Assembly (NCBI GenBank): GCA_902774125.1
Contig: CACYHD010000007.1
Span: forward strand, 1-44,295
Length of the DNA: 44,295 nt
Origin: an uncultured Lachnospiraceae bacterium
Lineage (GTDB): Bacteria > Bacillota > Clostridia > Lachnospirales > Lachnospiraceae
Direction of reading: 5' to 3'
A model generated the notes under the pieces. It worked only from the letters and a program-made list of their open reading frames with translations. It made no database searches and was not told the origin of the DNA. The translations under genes were made by a program, and so were the position numbers. This document shows positions 19,403-31,139 of the stretch, one piece after another; position 1 is the first letter of the stretch, and every line of letters begins with the position of its first letter.

Positions 19403-20167
19403 TTATTTCATCTTATACATCTTCAATGCATTTTGCTTCGTAGTTTCTACAACTTCATCAAAACTAATGTTTTTGATTCTCGCAATTTCTTCTGCCACAT
19501 ATTTGATATATGTCGAGTCGTTTCTTTGTCCTCTAAAAGGAGTCGGTGCGAGATATGGCGCGTCTGTCTCAAGAACAATTCTATCAAGAGGTGTGTACTC
19601 AACAACCTCCTTGAGCTTGCGACCATTCTTAAATGTCACGACACCGCCAACACCGATGTAATAATTCATATCAAGAAACTGTCTAGCCATTTCCTTCTCA
19701 TAGGAAAAACAATGAATAACTCCACCGATTTCCTGAGCATTGTTAGCCTTCATAATCTCGTATGTGTCATTGGCTGCGTCCCTGCTGTGGACAACAATAG
19801 GCATATCATGTCTTCTTGCAATGTCCATCTGTCGCTCAAACGCTTCCCTCTGCATGTTTTTATCGTGCTCTCTGTGATAATCCATTCCAATCTCGCCTAC
19901 AGCAACAATTTTGGAATGAGATAGATTCTCCTCTATCCACTTGTAAATCTCCTCGTTCAAGTCGCCTACTTCGTCAGGATGAATTCCTAGAGCACCAAAA
20001 ACAAAGTCGTATTCATCCACCAGTTGAATAGTGGACTTTAACGACTTTGTATCTGCCGCTATATTTACAATCGTCTCTACGCCGTTATCCTTCATGGATT
20101 CTAGCAGTTCTCTGCGATCATCATCGAACCAACTATCATCCATGTGGGCGTGTGTATCAAAAATCAT
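19403..20167 (-). CDS. TatD family metal-dependent hydrolase
   Basis: 254 residues. Metal-binding motifs of TatD DNases are in order: DTHAHMDD, GIHPDEV, GEIGMDY, VHSRDA, HCFS and LETDAPYLAP. TatD proteins are 3'-5' exonuclease/metal-dependent hydrolases of the amidohydrolase superfamily, cytoplasmic. It follows metG by 26 bases and precedes ksgA by 16. No strong ribosome site is present (CTAGGC), so translation may be coupled. Confidence 0.93.
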   Translation of the reverse strand: MIFDTHAHMDDSWFDDDRRELLESMKDNGVETIVNIAADTKSLKSTIQLVDEYDFVFGALGIHPDEVGDLNEEIYKWIEENLSHSKIVAVGEIGMDYHREHDKNMQREAFERQMDIARRHDMPIVVHSRDAANDTYEIMKANNAQEIGGVIHCFSYEKEMARQFLDMNYYIGVGGVVTFKNGRKLKEVVEYTPLDRIVLETDAPYLAPTPFRGQRNDSTYIKYVAEEIARIKNISFDEVVETTKQNALKMYKMK

Positions 20168-20193
20168 ATTTTTGCCTAGTATAACTCTACTAA

Positions 20194-21771
20194 TTATTCT
20201 GCTGTATCAGCCTCAACCATAGCAACCAAGTCATCCATCTTCATTCTAGCAAATAGGATTTCTGGAGAATCAGTTACCTTGCTGCCTGACTTGTATAGAC
20301 CGAACTCGTCCATGTTATCAAAGCTTCTAAACTCTGCATTGATCTGTGAAAGAATCTTGTCTGCTGTCTCTGGCATAAATGGCTTGATCATACTTGCACC
20401 AATGTTAATACCTTCGATAAGGTTGTAAAGAACAGTTGCAAGTCTATCCTGCTTGTCCTCTTCCTTGGCAAGTGCCCAAGGCATTGTCTCATCAATATAT
20501 TTGTTAAGTCTCTTAAATATAGACATAACAGCACTAAGTGAATCAGCCACTCTTAGGTGATCCATCTTGTCGTTAGCTTCCTTGCAAGCATCTAGTATTG
20601 TCTTCTTAAGCTCTGCATCGATGTCCTCATCAACACCTTTGTTAACTACGTCGCCGCCAAAATACTTGTTAGACATAGAAATAGTTCTGTTAACAAGGTT
20701 ACCTAATGTATTAGCAAGATCTGAGTTCATTCTCTCAAGCATCAAATCCCATGTAATGTTTCCATCGTTTTCGAAAGGCATTTCGTGAAGTACGAAATAT
20801 CTTACAGCGTCTACGCCAAAGTATTTAGCCAAGTCATCAGCATAAATTACATTACCCTTAGACTTACTCATCTTGCCGCCGTCCTGAAGCAACCATGGAT
20901 GACCAAAAACTTGTTTTGGCAATGGAACATCAAGAGCCATAAGCATTGTTGGCCAATAAATAGTATGGAATCTCAAAATATCCTTACCAATCAAGTGAAC
21001 GTTAGCTGGCCAATATTTTTCGTAAAGTGGATCGTGATTGCCGTCTACATCATAGCCTAGGCCAGTGATATAGTTTGATAGCGCATCAATCCAAACATAA
21101 ATAACGTGATCTGGGTCAAAATCAACTGGGATACCCCACTTGAAACTTGTTCTAGAAACACAAAGATCTTGAAGTCCTTTTTCGATAAAGTTCTTCATCA
21201 TCTCATTCTTTCTAGATTCCGGCTGAATGAAATCAGGGTTTTCATTGATATGCTTGATAAGTCTATCCTGATACTTACTCATTCTGAAGAAGTATGCCTC
21301 CTCCTTAGCTGGAGCAACTTCTCTACCACAGTCAGGACACTTGCCATCAACTAGCTGGCTCTCTGTCCAGAATGATTCACAAGGAGTACAATATAGTCCC
21401 TCGTATGAGTCCTTATAAATATCTCCCTGATCGTATAGTTTCCTGAATATTTTTTGAACCTGTTTTTCGTGGTCCTCATCTGTTGTTCTAATAAATCTAT
21501 CGTAGCTAGTTCCCATTAGATCCCAGATTTTTTTGATCTCGCCTGATACAGAATCTACGAACTCCTTAGGTGTTACACCCTGCTCGCCAGCCTTAATCTC
21601 AACCTTCTGTCCGTGCTCGTCTGTTCCTGTTTGGAATCTAACATCATAGCCTTGTTCTCTCTTAAATCTTACAATCGCGTCAGCCAAAACAGCCTCATAT
21701 GTATTTCCAATATGTGGCTTGCCTGATGTGTATGCAATTGCTGTTGTCAAATAAAATGGTTTTTTACTCAT
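20194..21771 (-). CDS. metG: Methionyl-tRNA synthetase
   Basis: 525 residues from ATG 21771 (AAGGA 5 bases upstream); in-frame starts farther up lack family similarity. It is a class I synthetase: PHIGNTYEAVLADAI (HIGH region), a zinc knuckle (CTPCESFW...CPDCG), the KMSKSKGN loop and an anticodon-binding helical domain at the C-terminus. It lacks the extra C-terminal tRNA-binding (EMAP) domain that longer MetG enzymes carry. It is first gene of the operon through comEB. No T-box was seen in the leader. Confidence 0.96.
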   Translation of the reverse strand: MSKKPFYLTTAIAYTSGKPHIGNTYEAVLADAIVRFKREQGYDVRFQTGTDEHGQKVEIKAGEQGVTPKEFVDSVSGEIKKIWDLMGTSYDRFIRTTDEDHEKQVQKIFRKLYDQGDIYKDSYEGLYCTPCESFWTESQLVDGKCPDCGREVAPAKEEAYFFRMSKYQDRLIKHINENPDFIQPESRKNEMMKNFIEKGLQDLCVSRTSFKWGIPVDFDPDHVIYVWIDALSNYITGLGYDVDGNHDPLYEKYWPANVHLIGKDILRFHTIYWPTMLMALDVPLPKQVFGHPWLLQDGGKMSKSKGNVIYADDLAKYFGVDAVRYFVLHEMPFENDGNITWDLMLERMNSDLANTLGNLVNRTISMSNKYFGGDVVNKGVDEDIDAELKKTILDACKEANDKMDHLRVADSLSAVMSIFKRLNKYIDETMPWALAKEEDKQDRLATVLYNLIEGINIGASMIKPFMPETADKILSQINAEFRSFDNMDEFGLYKSGSKVTDSPEILFARMKMDDLVAMVEADTAE

Positions 21772-21860
21772 CTTCTTCCTTACATAGTCGAATGGGACCA
21801 TGCTTTCCTTTCTCAAGATTAAAATAAAAATAGGACTAATATTTTTAGCCACTTCAAACC

Positions 21861-21866
21861 ATTATA
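21861..21866 (-). promoter_or_regulatory. Extended -10 of the metG operon promoter
   Basis: Minus strand reads TGTTATAAT about 90 bases upstream of the metG ATG. The -35 is weak (TTTTGT at 17 bases). The region 21772-21927 otherwise has no recognised element. Confidence 0.5.
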
Positions 21867-21929
21867 ACACACTATTAGCCAAAACAAAACTCACCTAGTT
21901 TAAGGCTATGCAAGTTACATAGCGCAACT

Positions 21930-21963
21930 AAAAACGAGCATCGGCTGCTGCTAATGCTCGTTT
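21930..21963 (-). terminator. Intrinsic terminator after the HPr-like gene
   Basis: A 10-bp perfect stem, AAACGAGCAT (21932-21941) with ATGCTCGTTT (21954-21963), and a T-rich run on the minus strand (TTTTTAG). It separates the HPr-like gene from metG. Confidence 0.85.
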
Positions 21964-21978
21964 CTTACTAATCTTAAT

Positions 21979-22242
21979 CTAGCCGTTAAAACCTTGGCTT
22001 GCGATTTCTACAATCTTGGCCAACGCCTTTTCCTCGTCGTCACCCTCGCACTGGAATGTTATCTCCGCTCCAGGCTTGACGCAAGCTGATATAATGTTGA
22101 TCTGACTCTTAGCGTTAATCACCTTTTCTCCATATATAATAGTCACCTTGCTATCAAACTCCTCCAACGCCTGAGCGATCTTGGCAGACTGCTTGATATT
22201 AAGGCCTTCCGTGTTATTGACTGTAAGTGTTTTGTGTACCAT
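21979..22242 (-). CDS. HPr-like protein lacking His15 (Crh-like)
   Basis: 87 residues, full length for HPr. The active-site region GLHARPA reads GLNIKQSA, so residue 15 is Asn, 17 is Lys and 18 is Gln: PEP-dependent phosphorylation at His15 is impossible. The regulatory Ser46 is kept (NAKSQINI, with Ser exactly at 46). This is the pattern of Crh in Bacillus, where residue 15 is Gln, and Crh acts with CcpA rather than in sugar transport. AGGAGG and its own promoter precede it. Whether an HPr kinase and CcpA partner exist is not visible here. Confidence 0.75.
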   Translation of the reverse strand: MVHKTLTVNNTEGLNIKQSAKIAQALEEFDSKVTIIYGEKVINAKSQINIISACVKPGAEITFQCEGDDEEKALAKIVEIASQGFNG

Positions 22243-22327: not shown

Positions 22328-22975
22328 TTATTCTCCGTACTTTTTCTTAACTCGGTCTATCTTCATCATAAGTGGCTTGGCCAGTAACCACAAAAACACA
22401 GCAGTTGCGATGGCATGCGTTATATTGAACACAATTCCTGCGCCGTAAATTCCCAGCGCACCTTTCCATGTCGGCCTATCAAGCATCATAAACACTGACC
22501 CCGTATCCACAATCAAGCCGTACACTATAAGCACAACCAAAAAACCAAAAACAGCCAAAACCATTTTGTTTTCTTTTTCCTCTAATATATTGCCGCTAAA
22601 AACTAATGCAGCCACAAAGCCTACCGCTCCAAAAGCAAGCATCTGCCACGGCGTCCAAGGCCCCTGTCCAAAAAAGAAGTTAGAAACGAACGCGGTCAAA
22701 AACCCACATATTATTCCTGCTTCCTTGCCTAGCATAATACCTGTAATTATCACAATTGCTGCACATGGTTTGACCTGCGGCACTGCAAAAAATATTAATC
22801 GTCCTACCACTGCCATACTAACTAACACCGAAATCATCACGACATCTCTGAGCAGTATTTGCTTTTTTTCGAATCTCCACACTAACAAAGCTATTGCTGC
22901 AATAACAAGCAAAACTGAAATTGCATAATAGTTAGCTTCCTTTAATATTGAATTGATTCCAAGTGCTACAATCAT
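22328..22975 (-). CDS. ECF transporter substrate-binding (S) component, predicted cobalamin
   Basis: 215 residues with about six hydrophobic segments. Gly-rich loops such as KPCAAIVIITGIMLGKEAGIICGFLTAFVSNFFFGQGPWTPWQML are typical of the S-component fold. It is the last gene of a six-gene riboswitch operon that also encodes the T and A subunits, so it supplies the substrate specificity of that ECF importer. Cobalamin (or a corrinoid) is inferred from the riboswitch and the DUF4430 proteins, not from the S sequence itself. The ribosome site is AGAGAGAG. A related vitamin or precursor as substrate remains possible. Confidence 0.75.
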   Translation of the reverse strand: MIVALGINSILKEANYYAISVLLVIAAIALLVWRFEKKQILLRDVVMISVLVSMAVVGRLIFFAVPQVKPCAAIVIITGIMLGKEAGIICGFLTAFVSNFFFGQGPWTPWQMLAFGAVGFVAALVFSGNILEEKENKMVLAVFGFLVVLIVYGLIVDTGSVFMMLDRPTWKGALGIYGAGIVFNITHAIATAVFLWLLAKPLMMKIDRVKKKYGE

Positions 22976-22984
22976 AAACTCTCT

Positions 22985-24310
22985 CTATCTACTTTTATAA
23001 AATCTTGTTCTTTTTAGAAACTCCTCTGTGTTGCTCTCCCCGACAATCTCGCCTACAGATAGCATTCCCATTCTGTCTGCCACCGCCTGACAAAACTCCA
23101 TATCGTGACTCACTATGACAATACATTTGTTGTCTTTTTTCATTTGCCACAAAAGCTTGGCAAGTTCTTTTTTGAACTCAATATCGAGTCCTTTAGTAGG
23201 CTCGTCCAGAAGTAATATATCAGGATCACCTGCCAAAACAATTGCGAGCCCGAGCTTTTGTAATTCGCCACCGCTCAAGTCATATGGATGAGATTCAAGC
23301 AACTTTTCAAGTCCCAAAAACTGAATCATCTTTTCCATTTGAGATTGATCCTTGTAAACATCCTTAAGCTCGTCTAAAACCTTTTCTCGGTGAACTAGCA
23401 GCTTAACATCCTGTGGCAAGTACTTGCTTGTCCCCTGCTTTTTGACCTTGCCCTTGTATGGCTTGAGAATGTCAGTAACGCAACCTAGAAGAGTTGTCTT
23501 GCCTGTTCCGTTCCCGCCAATCAAAGCGTATATCTCTGCTCTATTAGCTGTTAGCGAAAGATTTTTCAACACATCCTTGCCATCTCTATAATATCTGTAA
23601 CTAATATTTTTGACCTTAAGCACACACTCTCCCTTAGGAATTTTTTCCATCGTTGGATAGGTTTCTTCGCCGTCCCAATCCCAGTCCGTCAGCTTGCCAT
23701 CCTCTAGTCTAAGCACTCTTGTGGCAATCGATGCCACGCGGTTAATGTGATGCTCTGACATAATTATTGTTGTTCCAAAATCCCTGTTAAGTCTTTGGAC
23801 GAAAGCAAGCAGCTTCATTTCTGAGATTGGATCAAGCATCGCTGTGGCTTCGTCTAGTACGAGCACATCCGGCTCCATTCCCATAACTGCTGCTAAGTTG
23901 AGAATCTGCTTCATACCTCCGGAAAGCTGACACACATCTCTGTCGTACCACTCAGTCATTCCGAAGTACTCGCAAAGCTCGGCTATTCTGAGCCTCATCA
24001 TCTCATTGCTCATACCCATATTCTCAAGGCCGAAGGCCAACTCACTGTAAACTTTCTCCGTCACAATCTGAGTATCAGGGTTTTGGAAAACATATCCAAC
24101 CTTGCCGGCCACTTCCAAATTTCCTGTCAGCTCGCCGCTTGGAGCTATCTCTTTTTTGAGCAATCTAAGGAATGTAGTCTTGCCGCATCCTGTTTGACCA
24201 CCAACGACAACAATCTCTCCTTTTTCAACTTCCAAGGAAAGATTATCCAATATGTTTTGGTCCCCTGTATTATATTTAAAACTTATATTTTGCGCTTTAA
24301 TAATAGCCAT
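22985..24310 (-). CDS. ECF transporter dual-domain ATPase (A components fused)
   Basis: 441 residues with two complete ABC cassettes in one chain. The first has Walker A GGQTGCGKTTF, LSGGMKQ and Walker B VLVLDEATAMLD. The second has GGNGTGKTTLLGC, LSGGELQKLG and ILLLDEPTKGLD. It therefore equals EcfA1+EcfA2 fused. It powers the importer with the adjacent EcfT-like protein. The start overlaps the EcfT-like gene by 28 bases and has AGGAG upstream. It probably serves this operon's S component only, as all subunits are co-encoded. Confidence 0.92.
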   Translation of the reverse strand: MAIIKAQNISFKYNTGDQNILDNLSLEVEKGEIVVVGGQTGCGKTTFLRLLKKEIAPSGELTGNLEVAGKVGYVFQNPDTQIVTEKVYSELAFGLENMGMSNEMMRLRIAELCEYFGMTEWYDRDVCQLSGGMKQILNLAAVMGMEPDVLVLDEATAMLDPISEMKLLAFVQRLNRDFGTTIIMSEHHINRVASIATRVLRLEDGKLTDWDWDGEETYPTMEKIPKGECVLKVKNISYRYYRDGKDVLKNLSLTANRAEIYALIGGNGTGKTTLLGCVTDILKPYKGKVKKQGTSKYLPQDVKLLVHREKVLDELKDVYKDQSQMEKMIQFLGLEKLLESHPYDLSGGELQKLGLAIVLAGDPDILLLDEPTKGLDIEFKKELAKLLWQMKKDNKCIVIVSHDMEFCQAVADRMGMLSVGEIVGESNTEEFLKRTRFYKSR

Positions 24311-25158
24311 CTAATATTTTCTCCTAAATTAATTATCAACGGAATAAGACAAAACACTCCAAATATTATGTCAACCAACACCTGGTTTTTCATATTTACT
24401 GTTGGATAGAAGCTTTGTCGCAAATTGCCTGTTGCAAAAGCCACAATAACCATCGCCATAACAGCAATTGAAACAGCTGCAACAACGCCGTCTCGTATAC
24501 CGAAGCGTTGTCTTTGCAAAAATGTTTTTGGCCCGCTTCCATATTCTCTAGCCTTCATTGAATAGGCTGTCTCGATGGAACTCTCCAAAGCCCATGTTGT
24601 CGTTATCGAAAAAACATGACCGGCCTTTTGCACCGGGCTGCCTCCACCAATATTGTTGGCATCAAGAACATCTCTAGTCTCCTTAGCCCTGGCATTGTAC
24701 ATTGGAATAAATCTAAAAATAAGTGATAGCATAGTCGCTATTCTAGGAGCCCTTCTTCCTACTGTTGCAATAATTCTAGAGCTAGTCATTACATTGGCTA
24801 GGGCCAATATCCATATCATCATGCTGCCTATCATCAGGCCTGTAAGCATTCCGTAAAATACTGCCTCAAAAGTTACCGGACTTCCTGTCGGCAAATAGAA
24901 AAGTGTGGTGTGCCCCCTGTGAGAAAACAAAGGATTAACAACACCACACAAAATCATTAACAATATAATTCCACAATAGCCTTTTACCCCGTCTAGTTTT
25001 CTCACCACAAAGTAATATACACTTCCACAACAAAACGACAATAGCAATAATGCCGTGTGCATATTAAACATTGTAATGCCTATTACTACAGCAAAAAATA
25101 TTAAACTGCTTATTGGATGAACTTCTCGCATTTCATCCCGGTAAAAGGTTTGATTCAT
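24283..25158 (-). CDS. ECF transporter transmembrane component (EcfT/CbiQ family)
   Basis: 291 residues. The hydrophobic segments of EcfT are visible, as is the coupling-helix region with Ala-Arg-Gly-type motifs (RRAPRIATMLSLIFRFIPMY and SMKAREYGSG). These interact with the ATPase grooves. The ATG overlaps the TAA of the DUF4430 gene by one base (TAATG). It is a scaffold between the S component and ATPases in the inner membrane. Confidence 0.9.
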   Translation of the reverse strand: MNQTFYRDEMREVHPISSLIFFAVVIGITMFNMHTALLLLSFCCGSVYYFVVRKLDGVKGYCGIILLMILCGVVNPLFSHRGHTTLFYLPTGSPVTFEAVFYGMLTGLMIGSMMIWILALANVMTSSRIIATVGRRAPRIATMLSLIFRFIPMYNARAKETRDVLDANNIGGGSPVQKAGHVFSITTTWALESSIETAYSMKAREYGSGPKTFLQRQRFGIRDGVVAAVSIAVMAMVIVAFATGNLRQSFYPTVNMKNQVLVDIIFGVFCLIPLIINLGENIRWLLLKRKI

Positions 25159-25682
25159 TATTTAAAATCTCCCATTTCACAAGTAAAGTGCCAAACAATC
25201 TCGTCGCCGGCTTTAACCTGGCGAGCTGCTGAGCTAATCTTGGGCTGCACTCCGTTAACGGAATAAAGCCATCCTGACTGCTGACCGCAAGAAAACTCAT
25301 AAAAATCGCCGATTCCCTTTACGTAAATATTGTCCGAAGTTCCACTTGTCTCGTAGTTAATATCATTTTCCTTCAAGACTCTTGCCAGTACAGTAAAAGC
25401 TGAATCATTTTTTTCCAGATCTACCTCTGTCTTTTTGAGAATAATTCCGCCCTTTGGAACTAGCTTTCTAAGATCAAGGTCTAGCATATCCCTGTGGTCC
25501 AAAACAGTCTTGCACTCCACCTCAATAGTACACTTACCTCCAGTTAACTCTGTTGATAAGCCCTTGCTTGTTTCGTTGTTTCCGCCTCTGGCAAAGTTAC
25601 CTGCGAAGTAAACTATCAGCGCTGTCGCCACAACCAAAAACAATGAATATATTATTCTACCTTTTCTGCTATCCCTATACAT
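25158..25682 (-). CDS. N-terminally anchored DUF4430 (transcobalamin C-domain-like) protein
   Basis: 174 residues from ATG 25682 with GTGGAGG upstream. One N-terminal membrane helix (about 8-27) anchors an external DUF4430-like domain (about 50-174). Its hallmark GWLYSVNG lies about two thirds along, preceded by SAFTVLARVLKENDINYE and followed by KAGDEIVWHFTC. In animal transcobalamin and intrinsic factor this beta domain covers one face of B12. It sits between the alpha/alpha-barrel gene and ecfT, and is coupled to both (8-base and 1-base overlaps). Confidence 0.85.
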   Translation of the reverse strand: MYRDSRKGRIIYSLFLVVATALIVYFAGNFARGGNNETSKGLSTELTGGKCTIEVECKTVLDHRDMLDLDLRKLVPKGGIILKKTEVDLEKNDSAFTVLARVLKENDINYETSGTSDNIYVKGIGDFYEFSCGQQSGWLYSVNGVQPKISSAARQVKAGDEIVWHFTCEMGDFK

Positions 25683-27051
25683 TTTTGCCTCCACTTTTCT
25701 TGAAAAATACTATTCCACCTACTACCATTATTATCCATATTACAATAAGTGGCAACAATATGTTTGTTTTTGAAGCTTCTTTTTTCTTGCTCGTTACTTT
25801 TTTATTGTTATGCTCTGTCGCAACTACTGTAGTGCTAATCGAGCTTGTAATCACTGTTGTTGCTTTTTTTGCTTTTTTATGTTTTTTGTGCTTTTTATGC
25901 TTAGTAACTGTTGCACTATTTATTGCCGCAGTTACCGGTTGAATGTTTTTAGAGCTTACTGCTCTCTTTTGTTTTTTTATTTTTGCCTTTGTTTTTTTGA
26001 TTTGCTTTTTTAGTGTTTTTTTATTGATTTTCTTAAGCTTTTTCCCTTTGGCCTTGTGCTTGACCAAGTCATAAAAAGGCTTGATAGTCCCGGCGGAACT
26101 TTCCTTCTCAGCCATAATCTTACTTGCCACTAGAGCATACATAGCCTGATCTGTAGCCATTTGATTGCACTTGCCATTCAACAAATGTGCAAACCCTCCA
26201 GACTCTTCTATATAATATCTAAGTAGCCCGTCCAAAACATTATTGCCCTTTTTGATGAATCTATCATCATTAAGCTTAACACCTACCGAGGACAAAGCAA
26301 CAATTGCCTGCGCACTACTCTCGCATGTTTCTTTTCCTACCGTTGCAAAGCCTCCGTTATCCATCTGACTCTCACTCAAAAATTGTAGAGCCTTATTTAT
26401 TTCTTTTTGTACTTCCGAATCCTTAGTGTAGTATGGCGCAAGTGCCTGAATTACTATTCCCGTCATATCCACGTCAGCGTTTTGACCCATAAGCGTCCAA
26501 CCACCATTGGCTCTGGCTGCCTTCACCAAACTTTCCTTGTACGAACTTCTAGTTCCGATTTTCCCTGTGTAATCAGCTGGCACCTTAGGATTAGCGTAGT
26601 CGCCGCATTCTAGTGCAATAAGAGCATAAGCAACTCCATTAAGTCCCTGTCCTTTAACCTTGTCCGCTTCACCTAGCGGTTTAACAAGATTGTATCCACA
26701 AAAACTAGAGGCATCATAGCCCAGTGATGTTAGCGCTATTACTACTCTAGAGTACTCTGTGTATTTTTGTGCAGACAAAACACCATTGGTGCTTTCAAGT
26801 TTGTTCAAAAGATTGTCCAAATATATATTGGCATAGTCCTTTGTTATATAACCGGACTTGGCCAGCCCCATAACAGTCCACTCGCCACCAATAGATTGGT
26901 TACCAGGATTAGTCACGGTACTCATCTGTCTCGTAGCGCATTTATATATGTAATTATCTATCTCTTTTTGTGTATATATGGTATTTGCGCTGACCTTTCC
27001 ACTGAGCAGAACAATCAACGCAAAACCAATACACAATATTCTTTTTTTCAA
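25675..27051 (-). CDS. Membrane-anchored alpha/alpha-barrel (prenyltransferase-like repeat) protein, predicted B12-binding half
   Basis: 458 residues, TTG start. A signal peptide (1-22) is followed by ~300 residues of repeated helical pairs with GG-W/F turns (GGEWTVMGLAKSGY, GVAYALIALECGDY, GGWTLMGQNADVDMTG, GGFATVGKETCESSAQAIVALSSVG). This is the alpha/alpha toroid of prenyltransferase/squalene-cyclase repeats, the fold of the alpha domain in intrinsic factor and transcobalamin. A Lys/Ala-rich stalk (about 335-425) and a C-terminal membrane helix (about 433-451) then follow. No DXDD cyclase motif is present. With the neighbouring DUF4430 genes it probably forms the surface capture part of the B12 importer. 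Confidence 0.75.
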   Translation of the reverse strand: MKKRILCIGFALIVLLSGKVSANTIYTQKEIDNYIYKCATRQMSTVTNPGNQSIGGEWTVMGLAKSGYITKDYANIYLDNLLNKLESTNGVLSAQKYTEYSRVVIALTSLGYDASSFCGYNLVKPLGEADKVKGQGLNGVAYALIALECGDYANPKVPADYTGKIGTRSSYKESLVKAARANGGWTLMGQNADVDMTGIVIQALAPYYTKDSEVQKEINKALQFLSESQMDNGGFATVGKETCESSAQAIVALSSVGVKLNDDRFIKKGNNVLDGLLRYYIEESGGFAHLLNGKCNQMATDQAMYALVASKIMAEKESSAGTIKPFYDLVKHKAKGKKLKKINKKTLKKQIKKTKAKIKKQKRAVSSKNIQPVTAAINSATVTKHKKHKKHKKAKKATTVITSSISTTVVATEHNNKKVTSKKKEASKTNILLPLIVIWIIMVVGGIVFFKKSGGKNV

Positions 27052-27054
27052 ATA

Positions 27055-28284
27055 TTATTTAACCTTAACTTTTTTAACTTTTGACCACTTGCCGAATACT
27101 TTTGTCTTGCCGTCCTTAGCGTAAGCTCTAACTGCAACAAATAGTTTCTTCTTATTTTTAATCTTCTTAGACTTGATTGTGTAAGTAGTCTTCTTAGTAT
27201 ATTTCTTAACAAGAGCTTTCTTAACTGATTTGCTCTTTAGTACTGCAACCTGGTAGCCATCTGCGTTTTTAACCTTCTTAAATTTAACTTTAAGCTTCTT
27301 AGCTGCCTTTTTCTTCTTGGCAACTTTCTTGATTTTTACTCTTGCAGGTTTCTTAACCTTTTTAACTGCGCTAGTCGCTGTAGTTGTTGCAGCCTCAGTT
27401 GTTGCTGCAGCTGTTGTTGTCTCTACAGCTGTTGTTGTTTCTGCAACTGTTGTTGTTTCTGCAGCTGTTGTTGTTACTTCCTGTGTTGTTGTCTCATCTT
27501 GCTTTACTGGGTAGTACTTAAGACTGCCTAACAAATTATCAGCATCATCCTGTGTTAAATCATGATTTTCTAGTGCATCAATAACACCCTCATATTCATT
27601 ATCTATATCATCATCCCAATCACTATCAGGAATTAAATACCACATATCTGCTGCTGCTTTGATAAGTGCATCTTTGTTAGCCACAGTAAGTTTCTCTACT
27701 GATGGATTATATGAATATCCTAGATCTAGACCGTAACCAAAAATAGAAAACTGCAATCTTACTACGTCGTTATCACTAAGTTCAATTGCGTCCAAACCGC
27801 CCTCAGCACTAGCATTGTTAATAAATCCCATCCAACCGGATGTACTATTATAATCTTTTTCATCCAAGTCATCATCAACATTTCCATCATTGTTATCATT
27901 GCTTGGTGGAGCAACAACTGTTTGATCCCAGTTAGTATATGATGGTAGGTTTGCGATAGAATCTGGAATATCAACTTCTCCATCATCTGCATCTTTGATA
28001 CCTGAAATATAACCTCCAAACTGAGTTTCAGTTATCTTTAGTGAATAATCGCCACCTTCTTCTTCCAATGCTTCTTCAATAGCTTCCTTTGCTGTAGTTC
28101 CCTTTGGTACTACTAGTCTTGTAGGCTCAATTAAGAAACCTTGACCAATTGAAGTTTTTTCAATAGTTACATAAACTGTTATTGTTTCCTCGTCTGCTGC
28201 TTTTGCAACATAGCCCTGAGCAACAGTAAAGCTCAAAGCAATCACTGCTACTATAGCAATGATTCTGCCTAATACCTTTCTCAT
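27055..28284 (-). CDS. Secreted DUF4430 protein with Thr-rich linker and Lys-rich Fn3-like C-terminus
   Basis: 409 residues. A signal peptide (about 1-30) is followed by a DUF4430-like region (about 35-195) with GTTAKEAIEEALEEEGGDYSLK and SGWMGFINN, the domain's hallmark W-x-x-x-I/V-N position. An acidic region with DDD stretches (about 215-265), a Thr/Ala-rich linker (about 265-305) and a basic C-terminal domain (about 308-409) resemble those of the 899-2260 protein (YGKWSK/FGKWSK, KKVKVK ends). GGAGG precedes the ATG. It is the first gene behind the cobalamin riboswitch, so a corrinoid-binding role is inferred. Confidence 0.8.
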   Translation of the reverse strand: MRKVLGRIIAIVAVIALSFTVAQGYVAKAADEETITVYVTIEKTSIGQGFLIEPTRLVVPKGTTAKEAIEEALEEEGGDYSLKITETQFGGYISGIKDADDGEVDIPDSIANLPSYTNWDQTVVAPPSNDNNDGNVDDDLDEKDYNSTSGWMGFINNASAEGGLDAIELSDNDVVRLQFSIFGYGLDLGYSYNPSVEKLTVANKDALIKAAADMWYLIPDSDWDDDIDNEYEGVIDALENHDLTQDDADNLLGSLKYYPVKQDETTTQEVTTTAAETTTVAETTTAVETTTAAATTEAATTTATSAVKKVKKPARVKIKKVAKKKKAAKKLKVKFKKVKNADGYQVAVLKSKSVKKALVKKYTKKTTYTIKSKKIKNKKKLFVAVRAYAKDGKTKVFGKWSKVKKVKVK

Positions 28285-28318
28285 AATAACCTCCTCATCT
28301 TGCTTATGATTTTGGCTA

Positions 28319-28562
28319 AACTACGTTGACGTATCCTGACTTAGGTTCATTCTACTAAAGCGCCTTCCAATACACATCAACATATCGTTGGTCAACACTT
28401 GCTTCGCAAGTATCGACATACCGTGGCATATTGCTTTTTCGTCCCCCATACAGTAGAGATAGACTGTGCCGGATTCTCACCGGACTTCCCTTTAACTAGA
28501 CTGCTGCCTGTATTTACTTGCGCCTCGGGCGCCTCAGCAAAACCAGCATCCAGACCGTAGTT
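28319..28562 (-). ncRNA. Cobalamin riboswitch
   Basis: Minus strand holds the conserved core: GGGAAGTCCGGTGAGAATCC (B12-box region), GCACAG, then GCCAC, GGAAGGC and GTCAGGATACGTC. The ends pair perfectly (AACTACG with CGTAGTT) as P1. The ATG of the first gene is 34 bases beyond the element. No clear terminator stem is seen in that gap, so control may be at ribosome access (inference). A copy of the 36-bp hairpin repeat lies in the variable arm between GCCAC and GGAAGGC. Confidence 0.92.
28381..28420 (-). repeat. Copy of the 36-bp hairpin repeat inside the riboswitch
   Basis: Matches the unit repeated at 764-871, with one mismatch (G for C at 28387) over about 40 bases including the ACTTGC-TTC-GCAAGT stem. 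It occupies a peripheral arm of the cobalamin riboswitch, where length is known to vary. Confidence 0.85.
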
Positions 28563-28572
28563 CATCCCTAAA

Positions 28573-28601
28573 ATAATATCAAAATTTCACCTATCTTTCA
28601 A
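28573..28601 (-). promoter_or_regulatory. Sigma-A-type promoter of the cobalamin riboswitch operon
   Basis: Minus strand TTGAAA (28596-28601), a 17-base spacer and TATTAT (28573-28578) with TG upstream of the -10. It starts transcription just ahead of the riboswitch P1 stem. It sits only 8 bases after the stop of the upstream gene. Confidence 0.75.
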
Positions 28602-28608
28602 ACAGTTA

Positions 28609-29667
28609 CTACACATAGTATTCATAAAACTGTGTATACCAATGCGGTGCTATTTCAATCAAACCACCATACTCATTATTACATTGCGAATATGTACTTC
28701 TAGCAAAACCGTATACAATTGCATTTACCCTCTCAGTTTTATAAACAGTTTTATCAACTCTCTCAACTCTAATATATTTTTTAGTCACTGTAATTGTAAC
28801 AGGCATATTGTGAACAATATTGTATAACTCATCTTTGATCTTACTATCCAATTCTGTTTCAACACTCTGTTTTAAATTACCTTCATCATCTATATCAAAT
28901 GATATGTCCATCGGTCCTTTTATGAATTCAAAATAATTAACAATATCCTGTATTTCCTTTTTATAAGTTGTTATGATAGGTTTTATTTCCTCTTCTACAC
29001 CATACAAGTTTTTGTACGAACTAGGATAAGCTTGATTAGTAACATTTACCGTAACTTTCTTTTTCATTCCATTATGAGCTATAGCATAAAAAACAACTTT
29101 ACCTGTTTTCAAATTGTTATTAGCCGTAACTACTCCTTTATTAGAAATAGTAGCCAAATCATTCGGTGTCTGAAGCCACCTTATCTTCTTATCAAACAAT
29201 TTTTTCTTCTTATTTTTCTTGCTAGCCTTAGCATTGGCTTTAATAGTTATCTGACCATTTATTCCCATACTATAAACAGCTTTAACTTTAGAAAACTTTG
29301 AAGCATTAACCTTCTTCGACTTCTTGTTCACAAGTCTTGCAGAAACCTGAAAACTTTTTTTGCTCTCAACATTCTTCCCGCCGATAGTCTGGCAAGTTGC
29401 AACCTTGTACTTATACGTTTTATTTAATTTGACTTTTTTGTCAGATAACTTAGTAGATTTTAAAGTTTTTAACTTCTTGCCATTCTTGTAGACAATATAA
29501 GTGGCATTAGGAATTTTGTTCCACTTCACAACTAGTTTTTTGCTCTTATTTATCACACGTACATATTGTGGCGGTTCTATACTTATTTGTTCCTCTGCCA
29601 CAGTGTCGCCCACTGGCATTGTGCCCAATATTATCAAACTCACTATGATTACTAATACTCGTTTCAT
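28609..29667 (-). CDS. Secreted protein with Fn3-like and Ig-like regions, unknown C-terminal domain
   Basis: 352 residues. A signal peptide (1-24) precedes an Fn3-like module (about 33-110; PPQYVRVINKSKKLVVKWNK), then an Ig-like Big_2-type region (about 140-215; WLQTPNDLATISNKGVVTANN). A C-terminal mixed alpha/beta domain (about 225-352) ends HWYTQFYEYYV and is not recognised. It is rich in Lys. GGAGGG precedes the ATG, 11 bases after the previous stop. It is the last gene of a four-part surface-protein operon starting at 32298. Confidence 0.7.
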   Translation of the reverse strand: MKRVLVIIVSLIILGTMPVGDTVAEEQISIEPPQYVRVINKSKKLVVKWNKIPNATYIVYKNGKKLKTLKSTKLSDKKVKLNKTYKYKVATCQTIGGKNVESKKSFQVSARLVNKKSKKVNASKFSKVKAVYSMGINGQITIKANAKASKKNKKKKLFDKKIRWLQTPNDLATISNKGVVTANNNLKTGKVVFYAIAHNGMKKKVTVNVTNQAYPSSYKNLYGVEEEIKPIITTYKKEIQDIVNYFEFIKGPMDISFDIDDEGNLKQSVETELDSKIKDELYNIVHNMPVTITVTKKYIRVERVDKTVYKTERVNAIVYGFARSTYSQCNNEYGGLIEIAPHWYTQFYEYYV

Positions 29668-29678
29668 TTTCCCTCCAA

Positions 29679-31139
29679 CTATTTCTTCTTTGTTTTTATC
29701 TCACAATCATTACTATATGGTGTGAAAATCGTTTTGCCTTTTTTATTTTTATAAAAAGCTCTAACAGCAAACTCGTATTTAGTTTTATAAGTTGTTTTTT
29801 TATCAGTAAAAGATGTAGTCTTCTTATTATCAATAGTTTTCACTGTAGTATACTTTTTACCTTTTGTCTTTCTATAAATAATATATCCTTGCTTCTTGGC
29901 ACCCTCTTTTGAAAACTTATTCCAAGTAAGCTTGACATTTTTCTTCCCAGATAATACTGCTTTCAAATTAGGCTTTGCTGTTTTAATCTTTACTATGTTA
30001 CTTGTTTTTTTCTGAACTTCAACAAAATCATCATTTTTATCTAATATATAGTTTTTTTTTTTTTTTTTATAATAGTAAGTTTTTCCATTATCGGCAAAGT
30101 CATCATCTACGATATCTCCATTATCAATTCTGCCATAACTTTCATATATATTTTCCCAGTCATATGTTCCATCTTTTCTCTTAATGCCGACATATAAGGC
30201 ATAAAAGTTAGCCCCATGACATCTCTCATATCTTACAGTATTAGAACCCCATGTTGTACTAACCTTATATAGTTTGAAATCTCCTAATTCAGATGCCCCC
30301 TTACCTTGAAGAACTGTCGTGCTGCAACTCGCACTTTTATTATTAGTCGACTTTACAATAACATTAGTAGTTCCTATTCCAACCGCTTTAACAACTCCGT
30401 TTCCACTAACATTTACTATGCCATTTCTACTTGTTTTCCACGTCAATGACTTATCGGTAGCTATAGAAGGCAAAACTGTCGCTTTTAATCCCACTGTTTT
30501 GTTAAGCCCTAAATCCATTTGTGTTTTATCTAAAACTACTTTCTTAACAGGAATATATATCTTAGATTTTAATGCATAAGTTGTTCTTGCACTTCTGTCA
30601 TCATCGAATGTATAGTCATCTGGCAACGACAAATAGCAATACTTGCCACAAACACCAAGTACTTCAACATTTTGCCCTTTTTTAACATCTTCTGATCTTA
30701 TCCATGAACTGCTATCCGCCCCTCTATAAAAGGTAGCTTTGCTGCTAACATATCCATCTGCATCTTTTGCAGGCGTATATACAGAAATCATTGAAGAATG
30801 CTCCAGCGTTTCACCTGATGTGGTTTTAACAGTCAATCTTACTGTAGTACATCCTTCCTTAATACCATATACTGTAGCAGTTTCATTGTCACCTTCTATA
30901 CGAGCTATACTTGTATCATCAGACTTCCATTTAACAGAATCAACTTTGAGATCAGATGGATAGTACATAATTCCAAATGTATCATTGCTTCCACCAACTT
31001 TGATTGACCTATGCTCTATTCTTTCATCTAATGAATAACTCCATATTTCAACTTTGTTTTCGTCTGCTTTTACGACATTAGCTTTCAAAAATAATAATGC
31101 CAAAGTCAAACAGAGACTTAAAAAAAATATTTTTTTCAT
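29679..31139 (-). CDS. Secreted multi-domain Ig-like/SH3-like/Fn3 protein with a 17-base homopolymer
   Basis: 486 residues. A signal peptide (1-25) is followed by an Ig-like region (about 35-115; SVKWKSDDTSIARIEGD), an SH3-like region (about 125-190), a Big_2 domain (about 205-275; LTWKTSRNGIVNVSGNGVVKAVG) and an Fn3-like C-terminus (about 385-486). An A17 run in the coding strand (30052-30068) encodes a Lys5 tract after YYY; such runs slip easily. The ATG overlaps the previous stop (ATGA), with AAGGAG 7 bases upstream. The architecture suggests a surface adhesin; function is unknown. Confidence 0.75.
   Translation of the reverse strand: MKKIFFLSLCLTLALLFLKANVVKADENKVEIWSYSLDERIEHRSIKVGGSNDTFGIMYYPSDLKVDSVKWKSDDTSIARIEGDNETATVYGIKEGCTTVRLTVKTTSGETLEHSSMISVYTPAKDADGYVSSKATFYRGADSSSWIRSEDVKKGQNVEVLGVCGKYCYLSLPDDYTFDDDRSARTTYALKSKIYIPVKKVVLDKTQMDLGLNKTVGLKATVLPSIATDKSLTWKTSRNGIVNVSGNGVVKAVGIGTTNVIVKSTNNKSASCSTTVLQGKGASELGDFKLYKVSTTWGSNTVRYERCHGANFYALYVGIKRKDGTYDWENIYESYGRIDNGDIVDDDFADNGKTYYYKKKKKNYILDKNDDFVEVQKKTSNIVKIKTAKPNLKAVLSGKKNVKLTWNKFSKEGAKKQGYIIYRKTKGKKYTTVKTIDNKKTTSFTDKKTTYKTKYEFAVRAFYKNKKGKTIFTPYSNDCEIKTKKK
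30052..30068 (-). repeat. 17-base homopolymer (A17 in the coding strand)
   Basis: A continuous run of 17 T on the plus strand, read as A17 in the gene at 29679-31139. Length changes by one or two bases would put the C-terminal Fn3-like region out of frame, so this may act as a phase-variation or expression-tuning tract. Confidence 0.85.

Follow-up and report, generated by a model that had tools for sequence, protein, structure and literature searches.

Within a 44,295-nt stretch of DNA from an uncultured Lachnospiraceae bacterium (contig CACYHD010000007.1, assembly GCA_902774125.1; hereafter the window, to which all operon coordinates refer), we identified a cobalamin riboswitch followed by six genes coding for two DUF4430 proteins, an alpha/alpha barrel protein and an energy-coupling factor (ECF) importer with its T, A and S parts. 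With a probability of about 75%, we consider this to be the vitamin B12 (cobalamin) capture and import operon of a B12 auxotroph, in which the barrel and DUF4430 proteins would clamp the vitamin and hand it over to the importer. All elements lie on the minus strand and are read from high to low coordinates (28601 down to 22328). An earlier reading made without database searches (the sequence-only reading) had placed the six open reading frames (ORFs) correctly, leaving the strand unstated and beginning gene 3 at 25682, an ATG four codons into an ORF that starts with GTG.

28573 to 28601, minus strand: promoter-like site seen in the sequence, TTGAAA-17-TATTAT with TG before the second hexamer, 10 bases before the aptamer
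28311 to 28562, minus strand: cobalamin riboswitch aptamer, RF00174, 50.5 bits
28290 to 28295, minus strand: AGGAGG ribosome-binding site seen in the sequence, 5 bases before the ATG of gene 1
27055 to 28284, minus strand: gene 1 (D1), 409 aa, signal peptide (by eye), DUF4430 domain (PF14478, 25.0 bits, best stretch 140-179), Thr-rich and Lys-rich tail
25675 to 27051, minus strand: gene 2, 458 aa, TTG start, signal peptide (by eye), predicted alpha/alpha-toroid barrel (model, about residues 30-320), Lys-rich linker, C-terminal membrane anchor (by eye)
25158 to 25694, minus strand: gene 3 (D2), 178 aa from the GTG, N-terminal membrane anchor (by eye), DUF4430 domain (PF14478, 54.4 bits)
24283 to 25158, minus strand: gene 4, 291 aa, EcfT-type transmembrane subunit, CbrV-like (family profile against EcfT 5d3m, E 3e-19)
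22985 to 24310, minus strand: gene 5, 441 aa, two ECF ATPase domains in one chain, CbrU-like (domain matches)
22328 to 22975, minus strand: gene 6, 215 aa, S component, CbrT family (PDB match CbrT 6fnp, E 2.5e-14)

Genes 2 and 3 overlap in different frames, by 20 bases with the GTG start or 8 with the ATG start, genes 3 and 4 share one base, and genes 4 and 5 overlap by 28. In the mechanism that we propose, low intracellular cobalamin would open the riboswitch so that all six genes are made, and the two DUF4430 proteins and the barrel would sit at the outer surface of the membrane. Barrel and DUF4430 would then close on cobalamin like the two domains of intrinsic factor or transcobalamin, the membrane-tethered DUF4430 protein beside the importer would pass it to the CbrT-type S component, and EcfT together with the ATPases would drive the S-bound cobalamin inward, where it would supply MetH. 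A surface capture device handing B12 to an S component had already been suggested by the sequence-only reading, and is supported by the predicted fold, the conservation of the unit, an S component of a verified B12 type and fused relatives that match the animal carriers, from which we infer the binding of B12.

Riboswitch and control of the operon

The aptamer (28562-28311) scores well above the gathering score of RF00174 (50.5 versus 31.5 bits) and is the only RF00174 match found in the whole genome. Of the previously claimed riboswitch with its own promoter, the riboswitch is thus firmly established; the promoter-like site is present and scores no better than chance sites, its score being common to five of the 22 sites found with 17 expected by chance, so that its support comes from its position and not from its score. 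AGGAGG begins 15 bases past the aptamer and no terminator-like site lies between the aptamer and gene 1, suggesting that control is probably exerted at translation. Terminator-like sites on the operon strand all fall inside genes (nine on both strands versus 3.9 expected). Riboswitches of this class usually allow expression when cobalamin is low, and the same direction would be expected here.

The ECF importer and the B12 requirement of its host

Gene 6 alone, compared with the PDB, matched CbrT of Lactobacillus delbrueckii over residues 38-214 (phmmer), followed by a chance match at 0.044, and a profile built from 31 S components, gene 6 among them, recovered CbrT at 5.9e-28, ahead of 4hzu_S (1.4e-4) and a riboflavin uptake protein (0.0074). 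By these comparisons gene 6 appears to encode a CbrT-family S component with CbrT as its sole credible solved relative, and CbrT has been shown experimentally to carry cobalamin and cobinamide, according to the accessible part of PMC5997447. Gene 4 alone had no Pfam match; a profile of 20 T proteins that includes it matched EcfT, its identity as T being one by family profile only. Together with the two ABC domains that Pfam finds in the single chain of gene 5, the full ECF importer (T, dual A, S) of the sequence-only reading was recovered.

The genome (1.9 Mb, 92.7% complete) contains one protein with a B12-binding domain, MetH. Searches of it for MetE, CbiC and CobT gave no match, and no FecCD (BtuC-type) permease exceeded the cut-off, the one candidate scoring 18.1 bits against 26.5; given the incompleteness of the genome, these absences are strong hints rather than proof. 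Considering MetH, the lack of detected MetE, CbiC, CobT and BtuC-type permease, and the sole riboswitch, the host looks like a B12 auxotroph with the window operon as its importer. Both DUF4430 domains of the genome lie in this operon. The Pfam EcfT model, for which the window T is too distant, finds one EcfT in the genome, located outside the operon, with two ATPase genes and no DUF4430 in the surrounding few kb.

DUF4430, the barrel and their resemblance to animal carriers

Both DUF4430 proteins exceed the Pfam cut-off of PF14478 (23.8 bits), confirming their earlier identification. A window DUF4430 protein alone had no match in the PDB, and the family profile gave three matches at E<=1, namely Ruminococcus gnavus 3u7z (1.6e-7), residues 348-430 of human transcobalamin-1 (0.0039, a weak match) and the beta domain of human transcobalamin-2 (0.45). 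On these profile matches DUF4430 is homologous to the beta domain of the animal carriers. InterPro names DUF4430 transcobalamin-like. The accessible text of PMC4350170 locates DUF4430 in the C-terminus of TCN proteins.

For gene 2, the model is a confidently predicted all-helical toroid (pLDDT, the per-residue model confidence, 93-98 for residues of about 30-310 except 51-60 at 77), in agreement with the alpha/alpha barrel proposed before. Pfam yielded only sub-threshold squalene-cyclase matches (19.8 bits versus a cut-off of 26.1), and PF01122 (Cobalamin_bind) was matched by two of 38 barrels (best E 0.004), the window barrel not among them. Among the 50 VIA-align structure matches listed for the window barrel there was no transcobalamin, which excludes nothing.

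Since the window encodes D1, barrel and D2 in three genes, the one-chain layout of the intrinsic factor and transcobalamin family is not found here, and the two halves are encoded as separate envelope proteins, as the sequence-only reading had stated. Relatives, however, carry both in one chain. We found barrel and DUF4430 fused in 19 proteins of a first set, taken from DUF4430 neighbourhoods (11 with DUF4430 first, eight with the barrel first), and in 28 proteins of a second set, taken from loci found by EcfT, some of them alternating. In eight loci (L035, L046, L076, L138, L144, L152, L163 and L170) such barrel-DUF4430 chains stand before T, at the place of the window's gene pair, and in L152 the domains are joined via two hydrophobic segments, read by eye as an out-in-out hairpin. 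Fusion of neighbouring genes is a classic sign of joint function. Furthermore, the model of a fused 463-aa relative (pLDDT 92) retrieved with Foldseek exclusively transcobalamin, haptocorrin or intrinsic factor at ranks 1-15 (E 8e-10 to 1.2e-8), in alignments of 448-478 columns that span both domains, followed at ranks 16-19 by the transcobalamin beta domain and 3u7z, with the next match at 6e-3; its top Z (19.8) was to intrinsic factor.

Six further loci (L043, L050, L064, L075, L171 and L211) contain very long proteins of about 1750-2600 aa that combine DUF4430 and barrel, repeatedly so in L171 and L211, and that are possibly many-site B12 traps.

Conservation of the unit among relatives

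Across 200 genomes of the family (Lachnospiraceae), PF14478 was present in 95 and RF00174, under strict filters, in 164. From each of the 94 other DUF4430 genomes one or two neighbourhoods, not every DUF4430 place in them, were mapped with profiles built from the window genes, giving 100 neighbourhoods and, with the window, 101 loci. Fifty of these (type I) have a barrel, or DUF4430 with its own EcfT, comprising 40 with barrel, 41 with T and 42 with S. Another 42 (type II) pair a small DUF4430 gene with an adjacent CbrT-like S gene (the two within 10 bases of each other in 26 of the 42) and have neither barrel nor own T. In most of the remaining nine, one gene was missed by the window-derived profiles. 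A profile of 18 type II S proteins matched CbrT at 7.2e-19, the sole PDB match at E<=1, and three type II S proteins tested against NCBIfam matched no family. These loci suggest that DUF4430 could be the minimal handover part, to which the barrel would add affinity or reach. Examples of type II two-gene units are L088 (9308-10269) and L120; among plasmids, one protein related to a type II S component was found.

A riboswitch was detected at E<=0.1 in 53 of the 100 fetched loci (52 of 99 plus L133; three of the 52 only at E 0.009-0.014) with model R1, which is structurally weak (14 pairs) and was built partly from the fetched loci that it scored. It was found in 28 of the 50 type I loci (window included) and 18 of the 42 type II loci, and lay on the same strand, at most 3 kb upstream of an operon gene, in 47 of 52 loci (L133 outside this count). 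Rfam found a riboswitch in six of seven loci checked ahead of R1 and none in a recheck of 22 loci without an R1 match. The riboswitch is common among these loci and not universal.

Four loci (L072, L179, L168 and L131) contain two to four B12-riboswitch matches each among their DUF4430 and barrel genes, not every match being assigned to a gene, and look as if the capture module had been multiplied.

Because the barrels first aligned differed too much among themselves to scan the collection, EcfT served as the query in named genomes, where at least 594 of at least 598 places were confirmed and the best 80, in Clostridia and Bacilli, were kept. This set is biased to the present EcfT branch, because the query T genes came from such operons; DUF4430, barrel and riboswitch played no part in the choice. 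Of these best 80 loci, all contained A, 78 a recognised T, 72 S, 70 DUF4430, 59 a barrel and 52 a riboswitch (E<=0.01). Where at least 5 kb were available upstream of T (61 of the 80), DUF4430 stood directly before T in 55, a barrel within 6 kb in 47 and a riboswitch upstream in 44, with all three in 34. The barrel is present in 11 of the 13 genomes of the genus, counting that of the window's host; the two that lack it are 79% and 89% complete. The order D1, barrel, D2, T is kept in all ten other congeners mapped, with A and S following in nine and the contig ending in the tenth, and a riboswitch was found by R1 in nine of the ten and by Rfam in seven of the eight given to it. One congener has an extra ORF between barrel and D2; another (L224) has both in one open frame with an internal lipobox-like stretch, so that D2 may also be made or cut separately. 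Cultured relatives that carry the operon include Paenibacillus macquariensis (L191) and Blautia hansenii (L188). The gene set is conserved as a unit among relatives, a point on which the sequence-only reading had made its proposal depend.

Alternative explanations for the barrel and the substrate

The most serious alternative, although an unlikely one, is that the ECF part imports B12 with a DUF4430 helper, and that the barrel is a surface scaffold or adhesion part that holds DUF4430 at the wall and does not bind B12. The barrel would be dispensable judging from the 42 of 101 neighbourhoods that pair DUF4430 with a CbrT-like S component in its absence; the barrel alone is a generic toroid, and many of the barrel proteins have a C-terminus that is hydrophobic, Lys-rich or acidic (by eye). 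However, a scaffold would not readily account for the barrel-DUF4430 fusions in both protein sets, the high conservation of barrel positions (D195 and T197 are kept in 55 of 55 aligned barrels) or the match of the fused model to the animal carriers over both domains. Two points do weigh against a B12-clamping barrel: on its own it resembles terpene cyclases at least as much as B12 carriers, and in the fused model the predicted pose of the two domains differs from that of the B12-bound carriers.

It appears very improbable that the imported substance is a different one related to B12, namely cobalt, dimethylbenzimidazole or an incomplete corrinoid. Importers of cobalt and of the base can be riboswitch-controlled too, which speaks for such a substrate, as does the uptake of cobinamide by CbrT itself; cobinamide may be carried here as well. 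The S component, however, matches CbrT and general ECF S families and not CbiM, and with CbiC and CobT not found in the genome, cobalt or the base would be without evident use in the host; a cobalt importer was rejected on these grounds. To our knowledge, no dimethylbenzimidazole S component is included in the PDB comparison, which thus does not take in that family.

Least probable of all, and rejected as the principal reading, is a terpene-cyclase-type enzyme that shares the operon, since the barrel, despite its alpha/alpha toroid fold, its best sequence and Z matches to squalene-hopene cyclase and drimenyl synthases and a D-x-D-x-T kept where the cyclase DVDDTA aligns, lacks the DXDD acid motif of class II terpene cyclases (in the 55 aligned barrels the fourth position is never Asp but Ile in 25, Met in 12, Val in nine and another residue in nine) and belongs to a protein with a signal peptide and membrane anchor (by eye) encoded beside B12 import genes.

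Relation to known systems and significance

A B12 capture and import operon of this kind shares the S family, EcfT, the ATPases and B12 import in auxotrophs with ECF-CbrT of L. delbrueckii (6FNP; PMC5997447) and with CbrUVT, predicted as a B12 transporter (PMC6593275). The accessible parts of these accounts describe no capture proteins and name cbrS in the L. delbrueckii cluster without a function; in L. delbrueckii one ECF module serves several S components, whereas the window has its own module. A table in PMC9963975 annotates an 'additional lipoprotein component of putative cobalamin ECF transporter' in Lacticaseibacillus rhamnosus, and the same source has a DUF4430 protein beside rtpR; our guess is that the two are one protein. 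An extra envelope protein had thus already been tied to a cobalamin ECF importer, with neither a barrel nor a link to intrinsic factor in the accessible text. Related prior work, to judge from the parts available, also includes PMC2667541 and PMC12888040.

With vertebrate intrinsic factor, transcobalamin and haptocorrin, the window proteins have in common the DUF4430-type beta domain, by sequence, and an alpha/alpha barrel, and fused relatives match both domains. They differ in being three separate, bacterial, membrane-tethered envelope proteins beside an importer, in a barrel for which profiles A2 and A9 gave no sequence link to transcobalamin in PDB searches, and in the modelled domain pose mentioned above. 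BtuG and BtuH of Bacteroides belong to other protein families and feed BtuB in Gram-negative bacteria. Surface capture of B12 by these proteins, as proposed here for the window, is described in the accessible parts of PMC6143338 and PMC8941943, the latter also placing one btuH homologue near an ECF-like cobamide transporter in Eubacterium siraeum. That no functional description of the present arrangement was known still holds, since in searches of an open-access library that lacks most subscription papers we found none of an intrinsic-factor-like pairing with an ECF importer; CbrT, CbrUVT and the 'additional lipoprotein component' are its precedents.

More broadly, we see an even chance that the vertebrate B12 carriers have true relatives in Bacillota, proteins in which barrel and DUF4430 clamp B12 and which occur split, fused and arrayed, tied to CbrT importers and often under B12-riboswitch control. 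If this is true, the family of intrinsic factor, haptocorrin and transcobalamin in animals would have a common origin with a surface capture module of bacteria, and Gram-positive bacteria of the gut would be using, in the competition for B12, the same kind of tool as their host. Our findings suggest that B12 capture in many Gram-positive bacteria closely resembles that in animals. This step before import is little described for Gram-positive auxotrophs in the accessible parts of the cited papers, and PMC6593275 detected known B12 importers in only nearly half of the genomes of gut auxotrophs that it analysed. The operon offers a testable set of proteins for B12 capture and a likely function for DUF4430. 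It also connects a bacterial system with the B12 carriers of animals and provides a starting point for studying how these carriers arose.

Neighbouring genes

Directly upstream of the riboswitch, two surface-type proteins are encoded on the minus strand (28609-29667 and 29679-31139), both with Lys-rich tails (by eye) that resemble the tail of gene 1, the protein of 29679-31139 having a Big_2 and a weak fn3 match. After the operon, on the same strand (19403-22242), lie genes for HPr (Pfam) and for TatD-like and methionyl-tRNA synthetase-like proteins (both by eye), and the contig end (42913-44295) holds nine tRNA genes and the end of a 23S rRNA.

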